Below are positions 2,870 to 26,813 of a DNA stretch of 26,971 nucleotides, one piece after another. Position 1 is the first letter of the stretch. The number at the start of each line of letters is the position of its first letter. The DNA comes from a virus. Where the stretch lies: positions 1-26,971 of IMG/VR virus record IMGVR_UViG_3300030106_004401. The stretch is one strand, 5' to 3'. A program made the position numbers and the translations under genes. The notes below the pieces were generated by a model. It saw only the letters and a program-made list of their open reading frames with translations, did not search any database and was not told where the DNA came from.

Positions 2870-3205
2870 ATGGCAATAGATATAGAAACTTCAGTTATAG
2901 CTTTACAAAACCCTGTAAGAAAATATGCCTTTAGTCTAAAAACTGATGCTAATGGTGAATTAGAAATGGGTAGTGATGGTAAGCCTATTAAAATTTTTAA
3001 TGTATTTGAAGACGACGGCACAACTAAGAGAACTACGATTGAATGTGACGTTAAATGGACTCATAGAACTGAAGCAGTTGGAGATATATGGGAACCTTTT
3101 ATGTGTACACCTTGGGATACAGCGGCGCACGGTCAAAAACTTTGGACTGATTTAAATAATGGAGTTTATGGAGCCATTGATGAATCAGATTTAGAGGGTT
3201 GGTGA
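2870..3205 (+). CDS. Hypothetical protein, end of + strand fibre run
   Basis: This 111-residue protein starts at ATG behind AAAGGAGATAAATA. I do not recognise the family. It is acidic overall, lacks signal peptide and membrane segments, and has a Trp-rich C-terminal half (KWTHR, DIWEPF, PWDTAAHGQKLW, ending DLEGW). Unlike the fibre proteins before it, it looks like a compact globular protein, so a fibre chaperone or assembly factor is possible but speculative. The last 40 bases are also the end of the convergent oxygenase gene on the other strand, leaving no space for a separate terminator. Confidence 0.65.
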   Translation: MAIDIETSVIALQNPVRKYAFSLKTDANGELEMGSDGKPIKIFNVFEDDGTTKRTTIECDVKWTHRTEAVGDIWEPFMCTPWDTAAHGQKLWTDLNNGVYGAIDESDLEGW

Positions 3206-3822
3206 TCCTCAAAAATTGTTGTAAAATTAAAAGATAAAGATCTTCTAATTCTATCTTTGTGTTTCAATTTAAAGGGCATAACAAAATGTTGATGACTAGC
3301 TTGAAAAATATAGAAATCACCTACAGCTGGTTGAAATGATATACAATTTTCACCATCCACAGTTGTAAAAGTCAAGCAACCATTCATAGATTCTTTATTT
3401 AAATTTGTTGGAGCAACAATTTCTGGTGTTTTTAAAAATAAAACAGTTGAGTAGCCAGAGGCCTTTTTTGTTACTGGGTCTATACGATGAACGTGAGGTG
3501 GGTTAAAATCACCCTCAACCATGTCATTTATCCACGCGCCATCTATATGATAATCTTTTATTGGAGTATTTTTACTTTTAAGTAAATGTGCTGTGTTTTG
3601 TACATAATCTTGCATACAAGAATACATAGAGTAAATTATTGGCACAGAAGATAACATATTCATAATATTGGTTTCTTCTTTTACATTACCCGCTAATTTA
3701 TGACTGAAATCTTGTAGAGTTGATTTTTTTGCATCAAATATTTCATTTAATTGATTTATTTCATCTATCTGTAGATGATACTTACCTATAACTTTTCCAC
3801 TAACTGTAAAATCTGCTTGCAT
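3166..3822 (-). CDS. 2OG-Fe(II) oxygenase-like protein (HxH type), copy 1
   Basis: This 218-residue protein has the pattern of the double-stranded beta-helix 2-oxoglutarate/Fe(II) dioxygenases, closest in style to the 2OG-FeII_Oxy_5 / TIGR02466 group. Visible parts are LAGNVKEE at about 43-50, a metal-binding segment GDFNPPHVHR with H110 and H112, the strand GYSTVLFLKTP, then GDFYIFQASHQHFVMPF with distal H179, and RRSLSFNF with R194 as candidate 2OG-binding arginine. The second ligand position is His rather than Asp/Glu. ATG follows AAAGGATAAAAT. It is closely related in layout to the oxygenase at 10742-11419. It ends by overlapping the convergent + strand gene by 40 bases. The substrate is unknown; family members hydroxylate proteins, nucleobases or small molecules. 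Confidence 0.8.
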   Translation of the reverse strand: MQADFTVSGKVIGKYHLQIDEINQLNEIFDAKKSTLQDFSHKLAGNVKEETNIMNMLSSVPIIYSMYSCMQDYVQNTAHLLKSKNTPIKDYHIDGAWINDMVEGDFNPPHVHRIDPVTKKASGYSTVLFLKTPEIVAPTNLNKESMNGCLTFTTVDGENCISFQPAVGDFYIFQASHQHFVMPFKLKHKDRIRRSLSFNFTTIFEDHQPSKSDSSMAP

Positions 3823-3839
3823 ATTTTATCCTTTCAAAA

Positions 3840-4403
3840 TTAATTTATATATTCAAACCAACCTGTTAAAATATATTTATCACCTTTTAACGAAGTATTA
3901 CCTCTGTGTACGTGTGTCCATGAGGCAGGAGCAATAATTAGTCTGCCTTCTTTTGGTTGCACTCTTTTATTTTGATACAAAAATTCTGTCTCTCCTCCTT
4001 CTTCAATATTATTTAAATACATTAAGAAAAATAATGCTCTGCTAGAATTTTGTAAACTTGAATTTTCACTATGCCAAATATGATAACCCTCACTAGGAGA
4101 AGTTTTTTGTAATTTAATATTTGGATTTAAAAAAATCTTTGATCCTGATTCAAAAGCTGTTTTATATCTTTCTACATAATCTAAAAAAGCAAGGTTAATA
4201 ATATTATGGAATTCATTTAATAAATTAATGTTAAAATTTAAGAGAGTGTTTTCTTGTTCTTGTAATAAATAATAATGACTTCCGGTGATTAATTTTTCGT
4301 CTTTGTTTCTGTTTATTAATTCTAAATTTTTTAAGTGATCAAAAACTTTTTTACAAAAAACATCAGTATTATCTATATCATACACTCCTATAAAATCTGT
4401 CAT
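3840..4403 (-). CDS. 2OG-Fe(II) oxygenase, prolyl-4-hydroxylase-like
   Basis: This 187-residue protein (from ATG at 4403) resembles the P4H-like 2OG-Fe(II) oxygenases. The core reads GYHIWHSEN with H111 and E113, RALFFLMYLNNIEEGGETEF at 123-141, then RVQPKEGRLIIAPASWTHVHRG with distal H166, and GDKYILTGW with K176 at the usual 2-oxoglutarate-binding Lys. The HxE in place of HxD is conservative. The open frame could extend 13 codons to a TTG at 4442, but that stretch (MTTNLWYSCKKKN) lacks family character and contains a TTGACA promoter-like box, so I prefer the internal ATG. Its sequence is visibly more A/T-rich than the tail genes. Protein hydroxylation is the usual P4H activity; the target here is not visible. 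Confidence 0.8.
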   Translation of the reverse strand: MTDFIGVYDIDNTDVFCKKVFDHLKNLELINRNKDEKLITGSHYYLLQEQENTLLNFNINLLNEFHNIINLAFLDYVERYKTAFESGSKIFLNPNIKLQKTSPSEGYHIWHSENSSLQNSSRALFFLMYLNNIEEGGETEFLYQNKRVQPKEGRLIIAPASWTHVHRGNTSLKGDKYILTGWFEYIN

Positions 4404-4412
4404 ATTCTTTTT

Positions 4413-4464
4413 TTTACATGAATACCATAAATTTGTTGTCAAGAAAACAATTTATAAAAATACT
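4413..4464. promoter_or_regulatory. Possible back-to-back promoters with overlapping -35 boxes
   Basis: On the + strand TTGTCA (4436-4441) lies 17 bases before AATACT (4459-4464), upstream of the small gene at 4530. On the - strand TTGACA (4442-4437) lies 18 bases before TGTAAA (4418-4413), just ahead of the P4H-like gene at 4403. The two -35 boxes overlap in the 7-base TTGTCAA. The -10 boxes are weak (4 of 6 matches), and the - strand transcript would have almost no leader. Confidence 0.3.
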
Positions 4465-4529
4465 ATTGCGAACGAAATAAATATGCTTAAATTAGGTTCT
4501 CACCAAAATTAAAAATCTAGGAGATAAAT

Positions 4530-4685
4530 ATGGATAATGAAGACACAAATAAAGCTATTGCTTATCTAGCAGACAAATTAAGTAAATTTCACTCAGAACT
4601 TTTAGCAGTTAAAAGAGACCTTGAGCGTCATATAAAAGACGCAGCTAACCATTGTCCTGATGATTGTGAATGTAGAAAGTCTTAA
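4530..4685 (+). CDS. Small hypothetical protein with Cys-rich C-terminus
   Basis: This 51-residue frame starts at ATG behind a strong CTAGGAGATAAAT site and stops with TAA at 4683-4685. It begins MDNEDTNKAIAYLADKLSKF, continues as a probable amphipathic helix with charged residues (LLAVKRDLERHIKDAAN), and ends HCPDDCECRKS with C42, C46 and C48, which could bind a metal or form disulfides. It is the only + strand gene in an 8.2-kb run of - strand genes. Its stop shares the four bases TTAA with the stop of the convergent gene at 4682-4936. The strong ribosome-binding site, clean helix and tight packing argue that it is real; the function is unknown. Confidence 0.65.
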   Translation: MDNEDTNKAIAYLADKLSKFHSELLAVKRDLERHIKDAANHCPDDCECRKS

Positions 4686-4936
4686 GATTTAGGGGTTTCA
4701 CCCAACATATCTTTTAATGATGGAGCAAATACTTTGACATCTCGTCTAACTTTTTCGACAGTTGTTGAAGTGTTTGGATCATCTATATCAGCTTGCATGG
4801 CTTCTTCAGATTCATATTCTTGACCAGTATCTATATTAGTAAGCGTTGTTTCTGTCTTAACATTGTATTTTGGAACAACCCTTCCATCTTCTAGGGTTAC
4901 TGTTCCTATTTGTTCAGCATCTTTTACTATTGGCAT
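4682..4936 (-). CDS. Hypothetical acidic small protein
   Basis: This 84-residue protein starts at ATG 4936, directly after the oxygenase stop at 4938, with GATGGAGAGAG as ribosome-binding site inside the end of that gene. It reads as a beta-rich N-terminal half (IGTVTLEDGRVVPKYNVKTE) followed by an acidic linker (YESEEAMQADIDDPN) and a basic C-terminal strand. I do not recognise a family. Being placed one base after the HxH-type oxygenase suggests coupled translation with it. There is no signal peptide or membrane segment. Its 3' end overlaps the small + strand gene by four bases. Confidence 0.65.
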   Translation of the reverse strand: MPIVKDAEQIGTVTLEDGRVVPKYNVKTETTLTNIDTGQEYESEEAMQADIDDPNTSTTVEKVRRDVKVFAPSLKDMLGETPKS

Positions 4937-4937
4937 T

Positions 4938-5516
4938 TTACTCTCTCCATCTTAAATTAAAACTTAAAATAATTCTATCTTGGTTTGAATTATTTTGTTG
5001 TACCTCATGTTGTAACCATGATGGAAAAAAAATCAAGTTATTCTCTTTTGCTTCCCATTGTACGCTATGAGCAAAATGTACAGATAGATCTTGGTTTTTA
5101 GGTGGATCAAGCACCTCTGATTGTGGTCTGGGTTCAATAAACACAAGATTACCGCTATTTTTAGGCACTTTAATATAATATACACCAGATAAAAAATTTA
5201 AAGGATGTGTGTGAACTGTATTTCTAGCACCTGGTGGATTTATCATACCCCATAATCCTGTCATTTCAGGGCCATATTTTCTCTCTACACTTAACGCATT
5301 AAAACATTCTTGTGCTTGAAACATAATGTCTTGTGTTATTTTTTCAAAACCTTCATGCAAATACAAATCTTCTTTGCTGTGCCACCCATTTACATTTGAT
5401 TTTGGTGATCCAACTTTATCTTGTTTTTGTAAATCATAAAGTTTTTGTTCTAAATTATAATCGTTTTGCAACTCTGTGGTGAACACAGGAGTAATAAACA
5501 TACCTTGCAATTTCAT
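4938..5516 (-). CDS. 2OG-Fe(II) oxygenase, 2OG-FeII_Oxy_5 / TIGR02466-like (HxH type)
   Basis: This 192-residue protein is the clearest member of this family in the window. The motif series is TGLWGMINPPGARNTVHTHP (87-105) with H102 and H104, LSGVYYIKVP (109-118), GNLVFIEPRP (122-131), then FFPSWLQHEV with distal H170, and RIILSFNLRW with R181. This order and the FPSWLxHxV signature match what I know of the family. The expected iron ligands are H102, the residue two later (His here rather than Asp) and H170; R181 would hold 2-oxoglutarate. ATG follows AGAAAGGAAAAAG. The substrate is unknown. Relatives are frequent in marine phages, usually near virion genes as here. Confidence 0.85.
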   Translation of the reverse strand: MKLQGMFITPVFTTELQNDYNLEQKLYDLQKQDKVGSPKSNVNGWHSKEDLYLHEGFEKITQDIMFQAQECFNALSVERKYGPEMTGLWGMINPPGARNTVHTHPLNFLSGVYYIKVPKNSGNLVFIEPRPQSEVLDPPKNQDLSVHFAHSVQWEAKENNLIFFPSWLQHEVQQNNSNQDRIILSFNLRWRE

Positions 5517-6751: not shown

Positions 6752-8592
6752 CTTCTACCGTCTGGTCTTAATTCTAATTTTTGTGAGCCTAATCTCCAAG
6801 GTGTATCATTAACTGTATTAGTTGTGTATCTAATTTTTACTGCTCTACCTCTACCTCTAACACTTACTTTTTCTGTGGTGCTAGTAATACTTGCATTCGA
6901 CGTAACATTAGAGGAGGATTGTGGGTATTGCTCTAATGTAAGTCTAGCCGTCATAGTGTTTGCTAAGTTAGTAAAATCAGGAACTAATTTATTAACAGAC
7001 ATTAATTGATCACCGTCTGCTATCTCAACAGAGCCTGTTTCTAAAAAAGCTGTGATTGCTGTGCCATCTGCTTGATTATTGCCAGACTCATGTTCGTATA
7101 TGAAAGAAGCACCGGATGTTAATCCTAAAATGGTAGAAACGTTAGCTGTGGTGCTAGCATTATATTCAGTAGCAATAGGTTTTTCATATACATAAGCACC
7201 AAGCCAAGTAGTTCTCCCTAAACTCAATGTGTACCAAGTGCCTTCTAAATAATTATATGCAACAGCCCTATCTATTTGAGATGCGTTTGCAGAGGGGTAA
7301 TACCAAATGATCTCATTGTAAGCTGTGTTCAATCCTACAGCTATATCATTTTTATTTGTATAACTAATGTCGTCAAAAACAAAATCTTGCACTGAACAAG
7401 GCATTTTTTTAACAACACCATCATATAAATAAAATGCATCATCAGACATCCAATAAGCTATGCCGTTGACTTCTATAGCTGCGTGTTGAGCTATGAGACC
7501 TGAATTTGCACCAAGCTGTCTAAGCCCAAAGGTAAAAGGCGATCCAACAAATTGAATGCCGTGTAAGGATGTATCTGTCCACACAAGTATTTGGCCGGCT
7601 GATTTAACAGCGCCAACAATTTTTGATCCATCTGATATACGTAAAGATCCTGCCTCATTGGTAGCGACTGGTGTAAAATCTGTTGCATCTTCTCTATCTG
7701 AAAATCTAAAAAATAAATCATCCTGTGAGGATTCAGTGCCTATTGTAGTCTCTGTGCCAAAAATCAACAAATGTCTTGTGTCTGTTGAAACAAGACTAAA
7801 TCTTGATGCGGTAGGAGCATTAGATAAAGCTGTTGCCCTTGTGCCTACTCCTGCAGAAGTGTCCCAAACAAAAGTACCTCCATCTAAGACAGTAGCTATT
7901 AGATCTTCACCAAAATTATCTAATGACCAGTTTCTTCCTGCAATAACAACATCAGATGCAGAGCTTGCAGTGCCCCAAGTGCCACTACTCCATGTGTCAG
8001 TGCCCCAACCTAATCCATATGTTGATGTAGCTGGTCCTACGTTTATTTGATATTTTGCATTACCTGATCCACCACCTCCGGATGTTGAACCAGATGCTGT
8101 GCTAGTATGTGTTACTGTATAATTATTTGCATCAGTTATAGAAGTTATTTCAAATTCTTGATTCATGTCCAAACCGTCTATTGATGAAAAAGAATCAAAA
8201 GTAACAAAATCACCAAGTTTTGCATTGTGTGTGGTATCTGCTACAGAAACAGTGGTTGTACCATTTGTTGTGAAAGGATTTGTTAAGGCCTGAGTTTCAC
8301 GAATTGGAGTTATGTCATATACGGCTCCTTCGTTATAAATGTATAATTTTCTGTCTGTACCCAAGGCTAAATATCGTAAACCGTCTAATCCCATCCATGA
8401 ATGCGAGTCTCTTACGACGCCGACTATGGTTCTATTAGGATTAGGTAAATTTGTCCAGCCACCCCATCTTTCTGGTTTTCCATAATGAAACCTAACAAAA
8501 TCAGAATCTATATATTTACGATCGTCACCGGCTGAATATGCTGTGTCTTGTTTATCTATTCCAGGTCTAAATTTTAAGTCTACTAGCTGCAT
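6748..8592 (-). CDS. Large tail hub / DNA-stabilisation-like protein (P22 gp10-like, tentative)
   Basis: This 614-residue protein has repeated beta-propeller-like strands: RFHYGKPERWGGWTNLP near the start, RYLALGTDRKLYIY at 73-86, and later AGQILVWTDTSLHGIQFVG and GIAYWMSDDAFYLYDG. The early FVRFxxGxPEKxGGW pattern and the WTDxSLxxMQYxG-like segment are what I associate with the phage tail stabilisation/hub proteins of the P22 gp10 kind. A Gly-Ser linker (SGSTSGGGGSGN at 168-178) and a Trp motif (GWGTDTWSSGTWG, 195-207) separate the two halves, and the C-terminus is basic (RRDGR-like). It probably forms part of the short tail below the portal. The next gene overlaps its stop by four bases, so both are likely co-translated. 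Confidence 0.7.
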   Translation of the reverse strand: MQLVDLKFRPGIDKQDTAYSAGDDRKYIDSDFVRFHYGKPERWGGWTNLPNPNRTIVGVVRDSHSWMGLDGLRYLALGTDRKLYIYNEGAVYDITPIRETQALTNPFTTNGTTTVSVADTTHNAKLGDFVTFDSFSSIDGLDMNQEFEITSITDANNYTVTHTSTASGSTSGGGGSGNAKYQINVGPATSTYGLGWGTDTWSSGTWGTASSASDVVIAGRNWSLDNFGEDLIATVLDGGTFVWDTSAGVGTRATALSNAPTASRFSLVSTDTRHLLIFGTETTIGTESSQDDLFFRFSDREDATDFTPVATNEAGSLRISDGSKIVGAVKSAGQILVWTDTSLHGIQFVGSPFTFGLRQLGANSGLIAQHAAIEVNGIAYWMSDDAFYLYDGVVKKMPCSVQDFVFDDISYTNKNDIAVGLNTAYNEIIWYYPSANASQIDRAVAYNYLEGTWYTLSLGRTTWLGAYVYEKPIATEYNASTTANVSTILGLTSGASFIYEHESGNNQADGTAITAFLETGSVEIADGDQLMSVNKLVPDFTNLANTMTARLTLEQYPQSSSNVTSNASITSTTEKVSVRGRGRAVKIRYTTNTVNDTPWRLGSQKLELRPDGRR

Positions 8593-9212
8593 TTGACCCA
8601 GTATTGTATACTAAATCTTTGTTGAGTAAAAGATACATCTTTTCCTGATTTTGATAAAATAGGTGTAATGCAATGATTAATATAACTAGGAAAAACTACC
8701 ATAAGATTATTCCTACTTGGAATCTCTACAATTTTACCCTCGTCCATAAATAACATATCTCCACCTTCTAGCTCGTCTCCTTCATTAATTATTAAATTAA
8801 AGGTAAAAAATTCAGTGTCACAATGCCAATCATAAAAGCCCCCATTGTTATAACAGACAACATGTATTTTTGCTTGTAGGTCTTTTTTTAAAAATTTAAA
8901 AACATTATCTCTGCCTGAATTTTGCAGGAAAGAAAAGAACCCTTGGTTATAAAATCTAGTGTTCAAACTTAGTATGTTCTCATTATTTTGAGGGGTCTCA
9001 CCAAAATTAATCCAATAATCAAAACCCCCGCATGATTTATTAAAAGCAGAATATTTTTCTTTTTGTTTTGTTAAGGTGTTAACCCCATACCATTCAGGCA
9101 TTTTAAATGCATTAATGTTTTTAATTAAATCATTTTGCACGTTTTCAAAAATAACAGGTGGTAAAAAATCTTTACAAATAATTATATTTTCCGAAACGTA
9201 TTCATATCTCAT
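8583..9212 (-). CDS. 2OG-Fe(II) oxygenase (HxD type)
   Basis: This 209-residue protein carries the classic 2OG-Fe(II) oxygenase core: GGFYDWHCDTEF with H130 and D132, FNLIINEGDELEGGDMLF (138-155), NNLMVVFPSYINHCITPI with distal H180, and QQRFSIQYWV with R199 as 2-oxoglutarate-binding arginine. The complete H-x-D...H...R set makes activity plausible. The N-terminal half has a FLPPVIFENV start typical of P4H-like relatives and a Cys/Gly-rich segment (KSCGGFDYW). It starts at ATG 9212, overlapping the glycosyltransferase stop by four bases (ATGA), and its end overlaps the tail gene start by ten bases. It is therefore in the same translational chain as the glycosyltransferase; shared substrate is an inference. 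Confidence 0.85.
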   Translation of the reverse strand: MRYEYVSENIIICKDFLPPVIFENVQNDLIKNINAFKMPEWYGVNTLTKQKEKYSAFNKSCGGFDYWINFGETPQNNENILSLNTRFYNQGFFSFLQNSGRDNVFKFLKKDLQAKIHVVCYNNGGFYDWHCDTEFFTFNLIINEGDELEGGDMLFMDEGKIVEIPSRNNLMVVFPSYINHCITPILSKSGKDVSFTQQRFSIQYWVKCS

Positions 9213-9988
9213 TTTTCGACTCCTTTAAACTGTGTACCAACATTACCTCTAAAAGCATAGTTGCCATAATGTGTCATGCCAGATAAAACATCAGCATAAA
9301 TTTTACCGCCCATGTTTTGCCATAAACGACAAAAAGCGTAATCCTCTGATAGATATCTTTTTGTTTGTGGTTCTATCATGGTATCAAAAAAAGCAAAATT
9401 CCAATCTGATGTTTTGTGATAATTAAATTCTGTTTCGTGCGATTGATTTATATGTTGATCAGGTTTAAATTGTAAATTTGGATAAACTTTAGCCATTCTT
9501 TTAAAAACTTCTTTTTTTATTAACATGAAACCTGTTGGGCCATCTAAGACCTCAATAAATCCATTTTCTAATAAAATTTTATCAGGGTCTTTTACATTTA
9601 AATTATATTGTAATGATGCTGCTAAAAGTTCATCTTCGGATATATCAGGATTTTCTTTCAATCTTTTCTTAACTTTCATCCAATCAATAGTTTTTCTTGG
9701 ATATATGCCAGTGACCACTTCTTTGTCATACTCTAACATTCTTACTACAGCATCCGGATTAAAAGCTAAATCGGCATCTATGAATAATAAATGCGTGTAG
9801 TTTCCATCCATGAATAATTGAACTAATGTATTACGAGCTCTAGTAATTAAAGACTCATTACCTATTGTTGCAAATTGTAATTCTATTTTATTTGCGGCTG
9901 CTAAAGATACTAATTGCATGCAGCTTTTAAAATATTCTGTGGTAATAAGACCGCCGTAACAAGGAGTTCCAACAAATACTTTATGCAT
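9209..9988 (-). CDS. GT-A type glycosyltransferase-like protein
   Basis: This 259-residue protein begins MHKVFVGTPCYGGLITTEYF, continues with NESLITRARNTLV (44-56), then THLLFIDADLAF with the D71-x-D73 metal/nucleotide-sugar motif of GT-A enzymes. Later it has FIEVLDGPTGFMLIKKEVF (144-162) and RYLSEDYAFCRLW (211-223), where E215/D216 occupy the usual catalytic-base region, plus H240 near the C-terminus. There is no membrane segment, so it is likely cytosolic. ATG 9988 is preferred over a start 36 codons upstream because it gives an eight-base overlap (ATGCATAA) with the preceding oxygenase and begins at the family's normal N-terminus. Donor and acceptor are unknown; candidates are virion proteins, host surface glycans or modified bases. 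Confidence 0.8.
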   Translation of the reverse strand: MHKVFVGTPCYGGLITTEYFKSCMQLVSLAAANKIELQFATIGNESLITRARNTLVQLFMDGNYTHLLFIDADLAFNPDAVVRMLEYDKEVVTGIYPRKTIDWMKVKKRLKENPDISEDELLAASLQYNLNVKDPDKILLENGFIEVLDGPTGFMLIKKEVFKRMAKVYPNLQFKPDQHINQSHETEFNYHKTSDWNFAFFDTMIEPQTKRYLSEDYAFCRLWQNMGGKIYADVLSGMTHYGNYAFRGNVGTQFKGVEK

Positions 9989-10490
9989 CTTTATAAAAAA
10001 TATTAAGTGTGTATCTGTCAGTGCTTTCGCCAAATGATTGTAAATCAGAATGCATAATTTTGCTACCATTAAAAAATAAAGCTCTATTTTCAACAAATCC
10101 TATGTGTGAAGATAATTGATTATTATTAGCAAAGCCCGTGCCATTATTAAATAATGGTTCACCTTTTACAAACAGTAAAAAATTAGCAACATTACCCTTG
10201 TAGGTGTCTATGTGAAACATTGGCTCTTTGTTATTTTTTCTTACGTGAGCGCTTACAGATATTGGCTCTAAATTTCTATTAGGAAAAAAATAATTTTTAA
10301 TTAATTTTAATAAAGGATCTGTGTGAAAACTTTTGGGAAATGTATGCCTTTTGCCATATGTGCGTCCGTGAGGATCATTAACTTCGGAATATTTTAAATT
10401 TATAAAAGTTTCTTGTAAAGATTCCAATGTTTCTATTGATAAAAAATTATCAACGTACATTACAAATTCAGTATTGCTATTGTGTTGCAT
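9981..10490 (-). CDS. 2OG-Fe(II) oxygenase-like protein (small, HxD type)
   Basis: This 169-residue protein reads VDNFLSIETLESLQ at the start, then EPMFHIDTYKGN with H93 and D95, NVANFLLFVKGEP (100-112), ENRALFFNGSKIMHSD with distal H147, and DRYTLNIFY with R159. The H-x-D...H...R order and strand spacing match small 2OG-Fe(II) oxygenases of phages. It is shorter than most, with a minimal N-terminal helix region. ATG 10490 overlaps the upstream gene by 14 bases, and its stop overlaps the glycosyltransferase start by eight, which makes these two genes the most closely coupled enzyme pair in the block. Substrate unknown. Confidence 0.8.
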   Translation of the reverse strand: MQHNSNTEFVMYVDNFLSIETLESLQETFINLKYSEVNDPHGRTYGKRHTFPKSFHTDPLLKLIKNYFFPNRNLEPISVSAHVRKNNKEPMFHIDTYKGNVANFLLFVKGEPLFNNGTGFANNNQLSSHIGFVENRALFFNGSKIMHSDLQSFGESTDRYTLNIFYKDA

Positions 10491-10758
10491 ACTCTACAGT
10501 TAAATATTCTATTTTTCTAACCCAGCCACGAGGTATAGATATAGCACCTCCACCATGATTATCATCTTTGTCTAAACACCATGATCTCATAATAACTATT
10601 TTATCATCATTATTAACAACCATATATCCAACCTCTTGACATACTGCTAGTGGAGCAGAAACAATATCTTTTATGTGCAACCAACCTGTTTCTGTATCTT
10701 TAGCATCATGCCACGTAATTCTTACCATAGGAAAAGGTGTATTAGATTTGTTGCTCAT
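10477..10758 (-). CDS. Hypothetical small conserved-type phage protein
   Basis: This 93-residue protein starts at ATG 10758 behind AAGATAAGG. The sequence MVRITWHDAKDTETGWLHIKDI, then APLAVCQEVGYMVVNNDDKIVIMRSW and IPRGWVRKIEYL, suggests a compact SH3-like beta barrel. I recall similar short proteins in cyanophages and other marine phages but no assigned function. It overlaps the preceding oxygenase by 17 bases and the following one by 14, so it belongs to the oxygenase translational unit and could be an accessory or structural partner. No catalytic motif is visible. Confidence 0.7.
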   Translation of the reverse strand: MSNKSNTPFPMVRITWHDAKDTETGWLHIKDIVSAPLAVCQEVGYMVVNNDDKIVIMRSWCLDKDDNHGGGAISIPRGWVRKIEYLTVEYATQ

Positions 10759-11419
10759 CCTTATCTTTTTTTCTTTTCACTTGTACATTAAAAGAAACAG
10801 ATCTTCTTTCTTCGTCTTGTGTCCTGAATGGATAAACCATATGAGATAGCCAAGAAGGAAAAAGATAGATGTCTCCTACTCTAGGTGTTGCTTGAAATGT
10901 ATGCCCATTAAAAGTTGCAGCTTGTCCACACTGCCATTGAATATCACCTACACAAGGAAAATGATCTTCATTTTCATATTCTTTTTTTAATCCTGGAGGT
11001 ATTCTTAAATATATTACACCAGACAAATCACCATCATGAACATGTGAAGGATTAAAATCGCCCGCCCACTGTGATACAACCCACATACTTGTGATAAGTA
11101 TTCTATCTACTTTATCCGGAGATATTGTATTGACCATAGGAGGTTGCTCTAAATATTTATGTATTATCATTTGTAAAGAATTACTCATGGCAGCAAACTC
11201 AGTAGATATCATCCACGCTGGAGGATATCTTACTTCTTGTTTTACATTACCTGCAAGATGCATTGAATGATCCCAATCCTTAGACATTTTTTCACTTTCC
11301 ATAATCTCAGTTGCTTTATCATCTAACAATTTAATTAAAGATTCAGGTAATGAACCTTTGAAGATTGTGGGACCAAACGGCCTAAAGGCCTGAAATTCGT
11401 GCTGTAACTTCTCTGCCAT
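10742..11419 (-). CDS. 2OG-Fe(II) oxygenase-like protein (HxH type), copy 2
   Basis: This 225-residue protein shows the TIGR02466-like series: MHLAGNVKQEV (53-63), GDFNPSHVHDGDLSGVIYLR (120-139) with H126 and H128, then RVGDIYLFPSWLSHMVYPF with distal H193, and ERRSVSFNVQV with R206 as likely 2-oxoglutarate ligand. LAGNVK, GDFNP(P/S)HVH and RRS(L/V)SFN are shared with the protein at 3166-3822, so the two are probable paralogs. The acid that normally follows the first His is replaced by His, with an Asp (D129) directly after. The C-terminus is a charged tail (KRKKDKDEQQI). ATG follows GAAAAGGAATAAAA. It is the first gene of the - strand block, read away from the divergent promoter region at about 11450. 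Confidence 0.85.
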   Translation of the reverse strand: MAEKLQHEFQAFRPFGPTIFKGSLPESLIKLLDDKATEIMESEKMSKDWDHSMHLAGNVKQEVRYPPAWMISTEFAAMSNSLQMIIHKYLEQPPMVNTISPDKVDRILITSMWVVSQWAGDFNPSHVHDGDLSGVIYLRIPPGLKKEYENEDHFPCVGDIQWQCGQAATFNGHTFQATPRVGDIYLFPSWLSHMVYPFRTQDEERRSVSFNVQVKRKKDKDEQQI

Positions 11420-24313: not shown

Positions 24314-25819
24314 TTAAAAAGGTGTCTCGTCTTCTAAGCTCTGCACTGGCAAAGGTGTATTATCGAAATTAAATGATGGCATGTACCATAAATGCTCTAA
24401 CGCACCTTTGACTCTTTTCTTTTTACTACCACCATCAAGTTCTCTTATTCTCCCACAAATTTGTGTTTCGTTATAGTCTGCAAACTTTCTTGATTTAAGA
24501 AAAGACTCTAACGCACTTAAAGTAAACCAGGACACATCATCTTTATCTGTAAACACTTTATCAATTAAAACTTCATCTATAGATAACGCTTCACCATTCT
24601 CTCTCATAAATGATTTAAGATGTTCATCAAATCTACCTTGCTTTGTTATTTCTTTAGGCATCTCTATTACGTCACAATTTTCTAAAAGAAAGTTTACTTT
24701 TGCTGACCAATCAACTTCTTTCATCCTTGGTGGCAACTCTGTTAGTACATCCATACATCGTTTTCTAAATTTGTTTTGATCATACAAAGTATCTGTATCT
24801 AGTTCCATACGTTTACCATCAACGTTTAAAAACCAAACAGGTTGATCACTTTCTAATTTAGTAAGATCTGTCAACTGATGTTGATAGGCGGACCCTATGC
24901 CATGTTTTCTTAATTTACATTGCACAGGATTACAAACAGAACACATTGGCTGGTCTTTACACTTGTATTGATAATCTTGTTTCTCATGTTGTTTTATTGT
25001 TTTGTTAACTTGTTCTATTGATAGTTCTGGAGAAAAGTATTGATAATTAAATTTACCAATCTTTGTTTGCCATGAGTCTGGAAAAGCTTTCTTCGCATAA
25101 ACTGCATACTGATACAAAACTTGATCACGGCCGCCCTCTGATATACCCATCGACATTAGTGTTTGTAAACAAGGAGGACCATCGTCCATCTCCACTGCTA
25201 TCTCTCTTTTTGCTTTTCTTTTTGTTAGTTGACTTTTAGTCAACGACACCGCGTCGACTTTTGTATAGAATTCTTCTAATGTCATGCTTTCGCCTACATC
25301 GTTAAATGCATAACGAAAAGAATCATCTCCACCATGGTATGGAAGATTTAAAAAATTACCTACGTCACCACGTTCGGTGTTAATGCTTATTTGTTTTGGA
25401 AAGACTTCTGTGTTTGCATGCCCGAGGTCCGCTGACCATTCTATTAATTTACTTCGAACAATCTTTGCAGGCACCCACTCAGATAAAAATAAAAAAATGT
25501 GAGCACCACCACTCTTTGATCTTGCTACAATTAACGGGAGCTCCAGCTTCTGTATTTCTTCAACGATGGCCTTATGATCAATTGGATAAGTATCCACATC
25601 AATACAACCCCAACGACACATGCTGTCATCATTGATAGGAACAATGCCAAGAGAAGGATTGTCGCCACGTAAGTGAGTGCGCCACATATCATCTGTAACA
25701 GGCGTTTTCTTAATGTAAGCTTTGCCGCCTTTTTTGCCTTTTTCGTCGAGATCACCAGCAATGTATTCGCCATGTGCTCGGTCTAGACCACTAAATATAT
25801 CTTTAAATTTTTCAAACAT
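24314..25819 (-). CDS. Archaeo-eukaryotic type primase (TOTE-primase-like)
   Basis: This 501-residue protein carries the AEP primase signature: RWGCIDVDTYP with D74-x-D76, ARSKSGGAHIFLFL with S103 and H107, and TEVFPKQ with E138, followed by the VGNFLNLPYHGG segment (153-164) I associate with TOTE-type primases. A Cys cluster KCKDQPMCSVCNPVQC (C287, C293, C296, C301) is a probable zinc or iron-sulfur site. The C-terminal 190 residues are helical and charged, and end EDETPF. It would make primers for the downstream polymerase. ATG 25819 follows ATGAGGTCAAA; this binding site lies in the outer stem of the structured leader at 25822-25925. No TOPRIM primase is visible. Confidence 0.85.
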   Translation of the reverse strand: MFEKFKDIFSGLDRAHGEYIAGDLDEKGKKGGKAYIKKTPVTDDMWRTHLRGDNPSLGIVPINDDSMCRWGCIDVDTYPIDHKAIVEEIQKLELPLIVARSKSGGAHIFLFLSEWVPAKIVRSKLIEWSADLGHANTEVFPKQISINTERGDVGNFLNLPYHGGDDSFRYAFNDVGESMTLEEFYTKVDAVSLTKSQLTKRKAKREIAVEMDDGPPCLQTLMSMGISEGGRDQVLYQYAVYAKKAFPDSWQTKIGKFNYQYFSPELSIEQVNKTIKQHEKQDYQYKCKDQPMCSVCNPVQCKLRKHGIGSAYQHQLTDLTKLESDQPVWFLNVDGKRMELDTDTLYDQNKFRKRCMDVLTELPPRMKEVDWSAKVNFLLENCDVIEMPKEITKQGRFDEHLKSFMRENGEALSIDEVLIDKVFTDKDDVSWFTLSALESFLKSRKFADYNETQICGRIRELDGGSKKKRVKGALEHLWYMPSFNFDNTPLPVQSLEDETPF

Positions 25820-25821
25820 TT

Positions 25822-25925
25822 TGACCTCATGTAAGTGGTGTGTGTTGAGTCATAAAACGGCGAAGTTTTATATGGTTTCAACCCAACACACCCACGCGCA
25901 ACAACCAACGGTACACATGAGGTCA
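25822..25925 (-). promoter_or_regulatory. Structured leader (nested inverted repeats) upstream of the primase gene
   Basis: Within the 142-base gap between the ssDNA-binding-like gene and the primase gene are three nested stems. The outer stem is an exact 11-base repeat, TGACCTCATGT (25822-25832) with ACATGAGGTCA (25915-25925). The second pairs 25835-25847 with 25884-25895 (12 pairs, one bulged base). The innermost pairs ATAAAAC (25852-25858) with GTTTTAT (25865-25871) around a six-base loop. In the - strand RNA the 3' arm of the outer stem contains the primase binding site GAGGT, four bases before ATG, so the fold would hide it. An RNA regulator, attenuator or DNA origin structure are all possible. 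Confidence 0.6.
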
Positions 25926-25961
25926 TCATAGTTTTCCCATTCATTGTTACGAACCTGTACC

Positions 25962-26813
25962 CTAGAATTTCACGCCAGAAATTTCTTCAGCATCCTGTGC
26001 ACTATTAGAGTTTGGAGTGACATCAGCCATTTCCTCCTGCTGCTCTTCGTCATGATCTGGAGCTATTCCAACTTCCCCCTGCTGGAATGATTTAGCAAAG
26101 CTGATGCAGGATTCTAGGGTATCCTTATTTGATACCATATCGAGTCTTTCAATAACCCAACTATGTACAGGGTTACCACCGACTTGTTCTAATGTGGTAC
26201 CTAACTTGTATATAAACGAATAACTTGGTGGATTTTGAATGACTCTACCAGCTACCTTTAGAATAGCAGTCTTTTGCATATACAACCACATTCTACTTTT
26301 TTTCATCTGTGAAACTTTCATAGTGATCAAAGCTTTAGATAGCGGTAGGTCATCTTCGTCTAGAACCACAACCAAATGATTCGCAACCTCTTCAATGTAA
26401 TTACCATTAGGTAGATAATTTAAATTATCTTTTTCATCCTTTTTGGTTTTACTCATTATGTCAGATGTTGCAGGATAAGTATTAACAGGTGCTTTTCTTG
26501 AAGTCTGTCCTCTCTTCTCCCACTCAACATAATTTCTAAAAAACTCACAAGGCACAACACGTATGCCCGCCTCGCCGTCAAATGTTTCTTTGTTAGCTTT
26601 ATTAATTATATTGCCTGGCGTATTACCTTTTACTGTCTTGTCACTAATTTCTGGTGACATAGGTTGTAAGATTTGAAACCTAGGTATTAGTATATCTTGG
26701 GTGGTAACATTACCTAACCCATCTCCAACGTTTTGTATTATTAATTCTAATGCCTCATCTACTTCAGCTACTGCTGTAGATTTTTTAGTGGCAGGTACTC
26801 CTTTAGTTGCCAT
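25962..26813 (-). CDS. Probable ssDNA-binding / replication accessory protein
   Basis: This 283-residue protein starts at ATG behind TAGGAGGTCATC. The N-terminus (MATKGVPATKKSTAVAEVDE) is followed by mixed alpha/beta sequence with strands such as IRVVPCEFF, HLVVVLDEDDLPLSKALITMKVSQM and SYSFIYKLGTT, consistent with an OB-like core though not decisive. The C-terminus is strongly acidic (DHDEEQQEEMAD) and ends GVKF: an acidic tail with a terminal Phe is the hallmark of T7 gp2.5-type and other phage ssDNA-binding proteins. Its place directly upstream of the primase, helicase and polymerase supports this. The family is not firmly recognised, so an unrelated replication accessory factor is possible. 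Confidence 0.6.
   Translation of the reverse strand: MATKGVPATKKSTAVAEVDEALELIIQNVGDGLGNVTTQDILIPRFQILQPMSPEISDKTVKGNTPGNIINKANKETFDGEAGIRVVPCEFFRNYVEWEKRGQTSRKAPVNTYPATSDIMSKTKKDEKDNLNYLPNGNYIEEVANHLVVVLDEDDLPLSKALITMKVSQMKKSRMWLYMQKTAILKVAGRVIQNPPSYSFIYKLGTTLEQVGGNPVHSWVIERLDMVSNKDTLESCISFAKSFQQGEVGIAPDHDEEQQEEMADVTPNSNSAQDAEEISGVKF

Follow-up and report, generated by a model that had tools for sequence, protein, structure and literature searches.

The gap between the SSB-like gene and the archaeo-eukaryotic-type (AEP) primase gene of a marine-type virus (virus record IMGVR_UViG_3300030106_004401, 26,971 bases, analysed in full and called the window here) carries a structured element that is, with high confidence, real, conserved, and formed at the level of the mRNA. 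Its helices are conserved through compensatory changes, lie on the RNA strand, overlap the Shine–Dalgarno site of the primase, and include two covarying helices that compete for one strand. The element is probably pseudoknotted. As for its role, we favour, with fair but limited confidence, that of a gate on translation acting in cis from the mRNA segment that joins the two genes; gating of primase translation is likely, and the pairing would be expected to lower translation. We place the element in a known category, phage translational control by site sequestration, as a new RNA family within it. With helices, competing pairings, and start site defined to the base, it is a compact candidate in uncultured viruses, in which the setting of an SSB-to-primase ratio by an RNA switch becomes a testable question. 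To our knowledge, most examples of phage replication genes controlled by structured RNA come from T4-type phages.

Nested stems and a crossing helix in the primase leader

On the minus strand, the SSB-like gene (stop codon TAG at 25964-25962) is followed by the primase gene and then by genes for a UvrD-type helicase and a family A DNA polymerase (Table 1), and the non-coding gap in front of the primase has the size initially annotated (25820-25961, 142 bases). The primase was matched to phrog_21866 (primase, 1.3e-93) and to the Pfam family AEP-TOTE (PF22548, 1.2e-15), and an SSB-like homologue also lies upstream of the primase in the relatives examined. In many relatives, the SSB-like protein terminates in an acidic, PF-containing tail, like that of bacterial SSBs. 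A small minus-strand open reading frame (25783-25944) was considered as a hidden leader peptide and rejected, as it is not preserved in the leaders of the relatives L004 and L005 (by eye).

Table 1. Features of the SSB-like/primase gap (window positions) and leaders of family B (positions in the relatives named)
Feature	Position	Strand	Description
SSB-like gene, upstream	25962..26813	-	Pam3_Gp34 family PF23977, Pfam 2.6e-39
Primase gene, putatively regulated	24314..25819	-	Archaeo-eukaryotic-type, 501 aa, ATG at 25819
P0 (S1) 5' arm, CGUAACAAU-G-AAUGG	25937..25951	-	Begins 11 nt past the SSB-like stop codon
P0 apical 5' strand, AC-U-AUGA	25926..25932	-	Pairs with 25915-25920, competing with P1
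P1 (S2) 5' arm, UGACCUCAUGU, anti-Shine–Dalgarno strand	25915..25925	-	Exact complement of 25822-25832
P0 (S1) 3' arm, CCGUU-G-GUUGUUGCG	25897..25911	-	Pairs with 25937-25951
P2 stem, 15 pairs, one bulge	25835..25895 (25881-25895 with 25835-25850)	-	In the long loop of the pseudoknot
P3 hairpin, 7 pairs	25852..25871 (25852-25858 with 25865-25871)	-	Hexaloop UUCGCC at 25859-25864
P1 (S2) 3' arm, ACAUGAGGUCA	25822..25832	-	Includes Shine–Dalgarno GAGGU (25828-25824)
Family B leaders, before the primase	L173 2874-2997; L174 1393-1546; also L254, L257-L260		

Three nested stems had been described in the initial annotation as a structure of 104 bases at 25822-25925, which is real but was understated in extent, P0 and the probable pseudoknot reaching beyond it. 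The outer stem (P1) is exact over 11 bases as described, its arms forming a perfect inverted repeat that is the only exact non-palindromic one in the window of at least 11 bases with arms within 150 bases, and its 3' arm contains GAGGT four bases ahead of the primase ATG, again as described. The second stem (P2) is present, but the 12 pairs given for it were too few (15 pairs with one bulged A were found), and the 7 pairs of the third stem (P3) were confirmed. Either DNA strand of the region is able to fold; as RNA, 25815-25930 folded at −45.0 kcal/mol, compared with −28.1 ± 3.5 kcal/mol for shuffled sequences (z −4.9; 0 of 200 shuffles as good). The UUCGCC hexaloop of P3 is identical across all seven distinct sequences of the element, which is compatible with recognition by a ligand or a protein. 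P3 contains TATAAAA in type 1 (sequence types are defined below), and types 2 and 3 (L004, L008, and L005) contain a short alternative hairpin, AAGUAA-UAG-UUACUU, which shares bases with P3 and has a similar predicted stability.

A fourth helix, P0, had been overlooked, its 5' arm lying outside the interval annotated, and was discovered by folding with upstream sequence added. Its arms in the window form a duplex of −22.3 kcal/mol (shuffle fraction 0.0035), and for each of the three types the best duplex was found in the same register, with a fraction of 0.001-0.0035 of dinucleotide shuffles being as good in this alignment-free test. P0 starts 10-11 nt past the stop codon in all three types. 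The 14 pairs of its lower part and P1 use different bases and cross, an arrangement that would make an H-type pseudoknot with P2 and P3 in the long loop. The P0 apex takes 25915-25920, a part of the P1 5' arm, so that the two pairings are mutually exclusive, yet both covary. The stretch between P1 and P2 was considered as a conserved single-stranded site for a ligand or protein, which was dropped because it pairs with the P0 5' arm.

Compensatory changes and the folding strand

Relatives were found in IMG/VR by protein searches with the primase and the SSB-like product and by a DNA pattern scan, yielding seven distinct sequences of three types (type 1: window, L001, and L144; type 2: L004 and L008; type 3: L005 and L006). 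In every relative carrying the element, it is located in the gap between the SSB-like and AEP primase genes, with one strong copy per genome and further matches at chance level. The conserved strand, used as a DNA pattern, was present in 86 viral stretches, and the hexaloop and Shine–Dalgarno arm were found only in those preceding this primase; 13 matches of the pattern in bacterial or archaeal genomes gave no covariance-model match better than E 1.5, and no copy of the element was found with primases that are 46-56% identical. Types 2 and 3 were retrieved at E 1.2e-4 to 7.6e-7 by a covariance model for which only window-type sequences had been used, and at E 2e-6 to 2e-8 by a second model (P0, P2, and P3), likewise trained on the window type only.

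In the alignment of P1 to P3, 95.7% of the pair cells were standard, compared with 35-51% in slid controls with the partner moved by 1-3 columns, and both sides had changed in 13 of 32 pairs. Counted for single helices, both-side changes were present in four of the 10 counted pairs of P1 (93.2% of cells paired), in 7 of 15 for P2 (95.2%), and in 3 of 7 for P3 (100%). For P0 they amounted to 7 of 20 pairs overall (96-100% of cells paired), i.e., three of 14 in the lower part (95.9%) and four of six in the apex (100%), and the pairing of the full pseudoknot reached 95.2% of cells (slid controls at most 45%). With seven distinct sequences of three types, these double changes represent few independent events, and the two alignments behind the counts (A7 and A9) had themselves been fitted to the model; the shuffle test of the P0 duplex is independent of the alignment. 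The Shine–Dalgarno arm is complementary to the GACC... arm in all three types and itself differs among them (GAGGUC, AAGGGGUC), its partner changing along. Between L004 and L005, all helices are kept with leaders that are 70% identical and primase genes that are 95% identical, and the letters of the leader thus change quickly with the helices preserved; L005 and L006 differ by an A-U to G-U change within P0. A lack of compensatory changes in homologous leaders had been named initially as evidence that would speak against the structure, and such changes are abundant.

The position of the region within a block of replication genes and the possibility of folding on either strand would suit a replication-origin or other DNA hairpin, the alternative offered in the initial annotation. 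The wobbles in the P1 to P3 stems, however, are all on the mRNA strand (about ten sense G-U, zero antisense) and would become A-C mismatches on the opposite strand, the opposite-strand fold was weaker in six of six sequences, and the pairing coincides with the Shine–Dalgarno site. Since G-U pairs are confined to the mRNA strand and no A-C pairs tolerated by a structure of the other strand are seen, selection most likely acts on the mRNA, and we regard a DNA hairpin as very improbable.

A putative gate on primase translation

In a longer mRNA context, plain folding gave P1 and a P0-containing alternative of nearly equal energy, so that the Shine–Dalgarno is not simply always hidden. With a program that handles nested folds only (pseudoknots are outside its reach), the ensemble difference of P0 minus P1 at 37 °C ranged from −5.1 to +1.8 kcal/mol. 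Window-type leaders favoured P1 and types 2 and 3 favoured P0 or were even; in the latter two the nested P1 fold was less stable than P0 at most temperatures, and hiding of the site would thus require the pseudoknot there. A pure two-state switch between P0 and P1 was demoted, since in type 2 P0 wins outright with P1 almost never forming, and an RNA thermometer was rejected, the P0 minus P1 difference at 4 versus 37 °C (nested folds only) shifting inconsistently across types with no consistent flip. A rough additive estimate, in which the energy of the P1 duplex and a crude pseudoknot penalty of 9.6 kcal/mol were added to the nested energy obtained with the two P1 strands left unpaired, placed the pseudoknot under the best nested fold in six of six sequences. 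Judged by this sum, P0 and P1 may coexist in one molecule, and the pseudoknot would reconcile the three types; sterically, the long loop would have to span a P0 helix of 14-15 bp with few linker bases, which is tight. According to nearest-neighbour folding, four other genes in the window have more buried sites than the primase, and the functional argument is therefore the covarying design, since burial of the site alone is unexceptional.

In the proposed gate, hairpin P0 would form shortly past the SSB-like stop codon, and its loop (UGACC...) would pair with the primase Shine–Dalgarno as P1, giving the H-type pseudoknot that carries P2 and P3. With P1 formed, 30S subunits would be kept off and translation of the primase would be low; with P1 opened, the P0 apex would close on itself and absorb the anti-Shine–Dalgarno strand, leaving the site free and raising translation. 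In the order of transcription, P0 would be able to form first and P1 only once the last bases before the ATG had been made. The arrangement may serve to keep the primase low relative to SSB, and the balance could be shifted by the SSB-like protein, another factor, or the timing of transcription or ribosomes; a ligand and ribosomes arriving from the SSB-like gene are further candidate triggers, and the gate may also work without any signal. The translational switch suggested in the initial annotation stands as far as the structure of the mRNA and the Shine–Dalgarno arm in a covarying helix of every homologous leader are concerned, and it is better grounded than before because a competing, covarying P0 exists.

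A specific form of the gate names its trigger: SSB-like protein in excess, with ssDNA saturated, would bind the pseudoknot, spread over the A+U-rich primase start (which reads AAAAUGUUUGAAAAAUUUAAAG), and repress the primase. The SSB-like product is the obvious candidate for a binder, as a lead by analogy. It is a predicted OB-fold protein, and the best matches of its predicted structure (mean pLDDT 73) include the cores of RB69 and T4 gp32 (about 155 residues aligned at Z 6.1). In T4, gp32 is a repressor of gene 32 itself (PMC535899), acting through an operator composed of a 5' pseudoknot and an unstructured A+U-rich start with UUAAA repeats (PMC3014915, PMC535899). However, a Z of about 6 falls within the common-fold range, the phiC31 recombination directionality factor was matched at Z 8.4, and these matches can simply reflect the common OB arrangement; when the SSB-like family was compared by sequence with solved structures, nothing meaningful emerged. 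UUUAAA in the primase start is accounted for by FKxFK, a motif conserved in the protein, together with the AT richness of the genome. The T4/RB69 operator, a pseudoknot, resembles the probable pseudoknot here in its place in a replication-gene leader next to an SSB gene and in the A+U-rich start, but it has a length of about 28 nt, is followed by a ribosome-binding site that is open, leaves the Shine–Dalgarno unhidden, and controls gene 32, whereas the element here exceeds 100 nt, includes the Shine–Dalgarno, and precedes the primase. Located downstream of the SSB-like gene, it would target the primase and not SSB itself, and we consider an SSB operator a tentative and rather unlikely form of the gate.

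Possible, if doubtful, is the sensorless form, i.e., a fixed attenuator that would set a low primase-to-SSB ratio and replace the simple intrinsic terminator found in the gap of 36 of 76 more distant relatives and in 0 of 6 clade members tested; such a device would need neither so large an element nor an invariant hexaloop or a covarying P0 apex set against P1. Close precedent exists for a promoter-dependent sequestration, in which read-through mRNA would be silent and a transcript with an internal start, lacking the 5' arm, would be translated: in T4 genes e, soc, 49, and I-TevI, the Shine–Dalgarno and/or start codon are sequestered in an mRNA helix (PMC3014915). Here, too, the ribosome-binding site in the read-through mRNA of a phage gene is paired in a helix, and this helix is conserved in relatives. 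The TATAAAA in P3 of type 1 would suit an internal start but is not kept in types 2 and 3, where P3 varies as a helix, and no sigma-70-like site was found on the minus strand of the gap (sigma-70 may not be the promoter type of the phage), unlike T4 gene e, in which release occurs via a transcription start inside the structure. The reading also leaves P0 without a role, P0 and the nested P2/P3 domain being additions relative to the T4 group, and is improbable. Long paired stems immediately past the stop codon, with hairpins at the equivalent place in relatives, could alternatively be an RNase III or RNase E site or a 3' stabiliser of the SSB mRNA; such a processing or stability element would leave the helix partner that tracks the Shine–Dalgarno arm, the competing helices, and the pseudoknot unexplained, and is improbable.

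Regarding known classes, PreQ1-II and related translational pseudoknot riboswitches (PMC11625349) resemble the translational gate in that a pseudoknot helix occludes the Shine–Dalgarno, but they belong to other organisms and another gene, and there is no sequence or Rfam match here. The search for a known Rfam class, suggested initially, matched none: all families of Rfam 15 at gathering score gave no match in the window or in L004 and L005, a loose search (E up to 10) gave two chance-level matches only, and PreQ1-II (RF01054) was absent from both. No description of the element was found in the open-licence literature on phage primase leaders or riboswitches.

The same gap in more distant phages

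Relatives at greater distance (identity of about 56% or below) usually have a short gap between the SSB-like and primase genes. The intrinsic terminators, surveyed in the gaps of L157-L181, L190-L228, and L012-L036, lie a few bases past the SSB-like stop codon (e.g., GGGGCGG-GCAA-CCGCCCC-UUUU). The distribution would fit a shared requirement that primase be made in smaller amounts than SSB, served by termination in some phages and by translational gating here.

A group of relatives with primases about 50% identical (family B; Table 1) has a long leader of different sequence in the same gap. There, the UUCGUUGGGU arm behind the stop codon forms a helix that crosses a second helix system, giving a pseudoknot; over its 28 pairs, 98% of cells are paired, against 36% at most in slid controls, and no Rfam match was found for it. 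Family B shares with the window element the SSB-primase gap, the post-stop UUCGU... arm, and pairing of a pseudoknot type, and differs in sequence and helices, its outer helix covering no obvious Shine–Dalgarno. Taken together, this suggests several solutions at one junction: a terminator, the pseudoknot of the window type, and that of family B. More speculatively, and with low confidence, the junctions might harbour an undescribed class of phage RNA switches that would respond to some signal of replication, such as a nucleotide or other ligand or free SSB, by toggling primase translation through strand exchange in the pseudoknot, with family B as a second pseudoknot at the same place in a related clade.

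Elsewhere in the window, several adjacent minus-strand open reading frames at 3166-5516 and 8583-11419 look similar to one another and may belong to an Fe/2-oxoglutarate oxygenase-like family (by eye).
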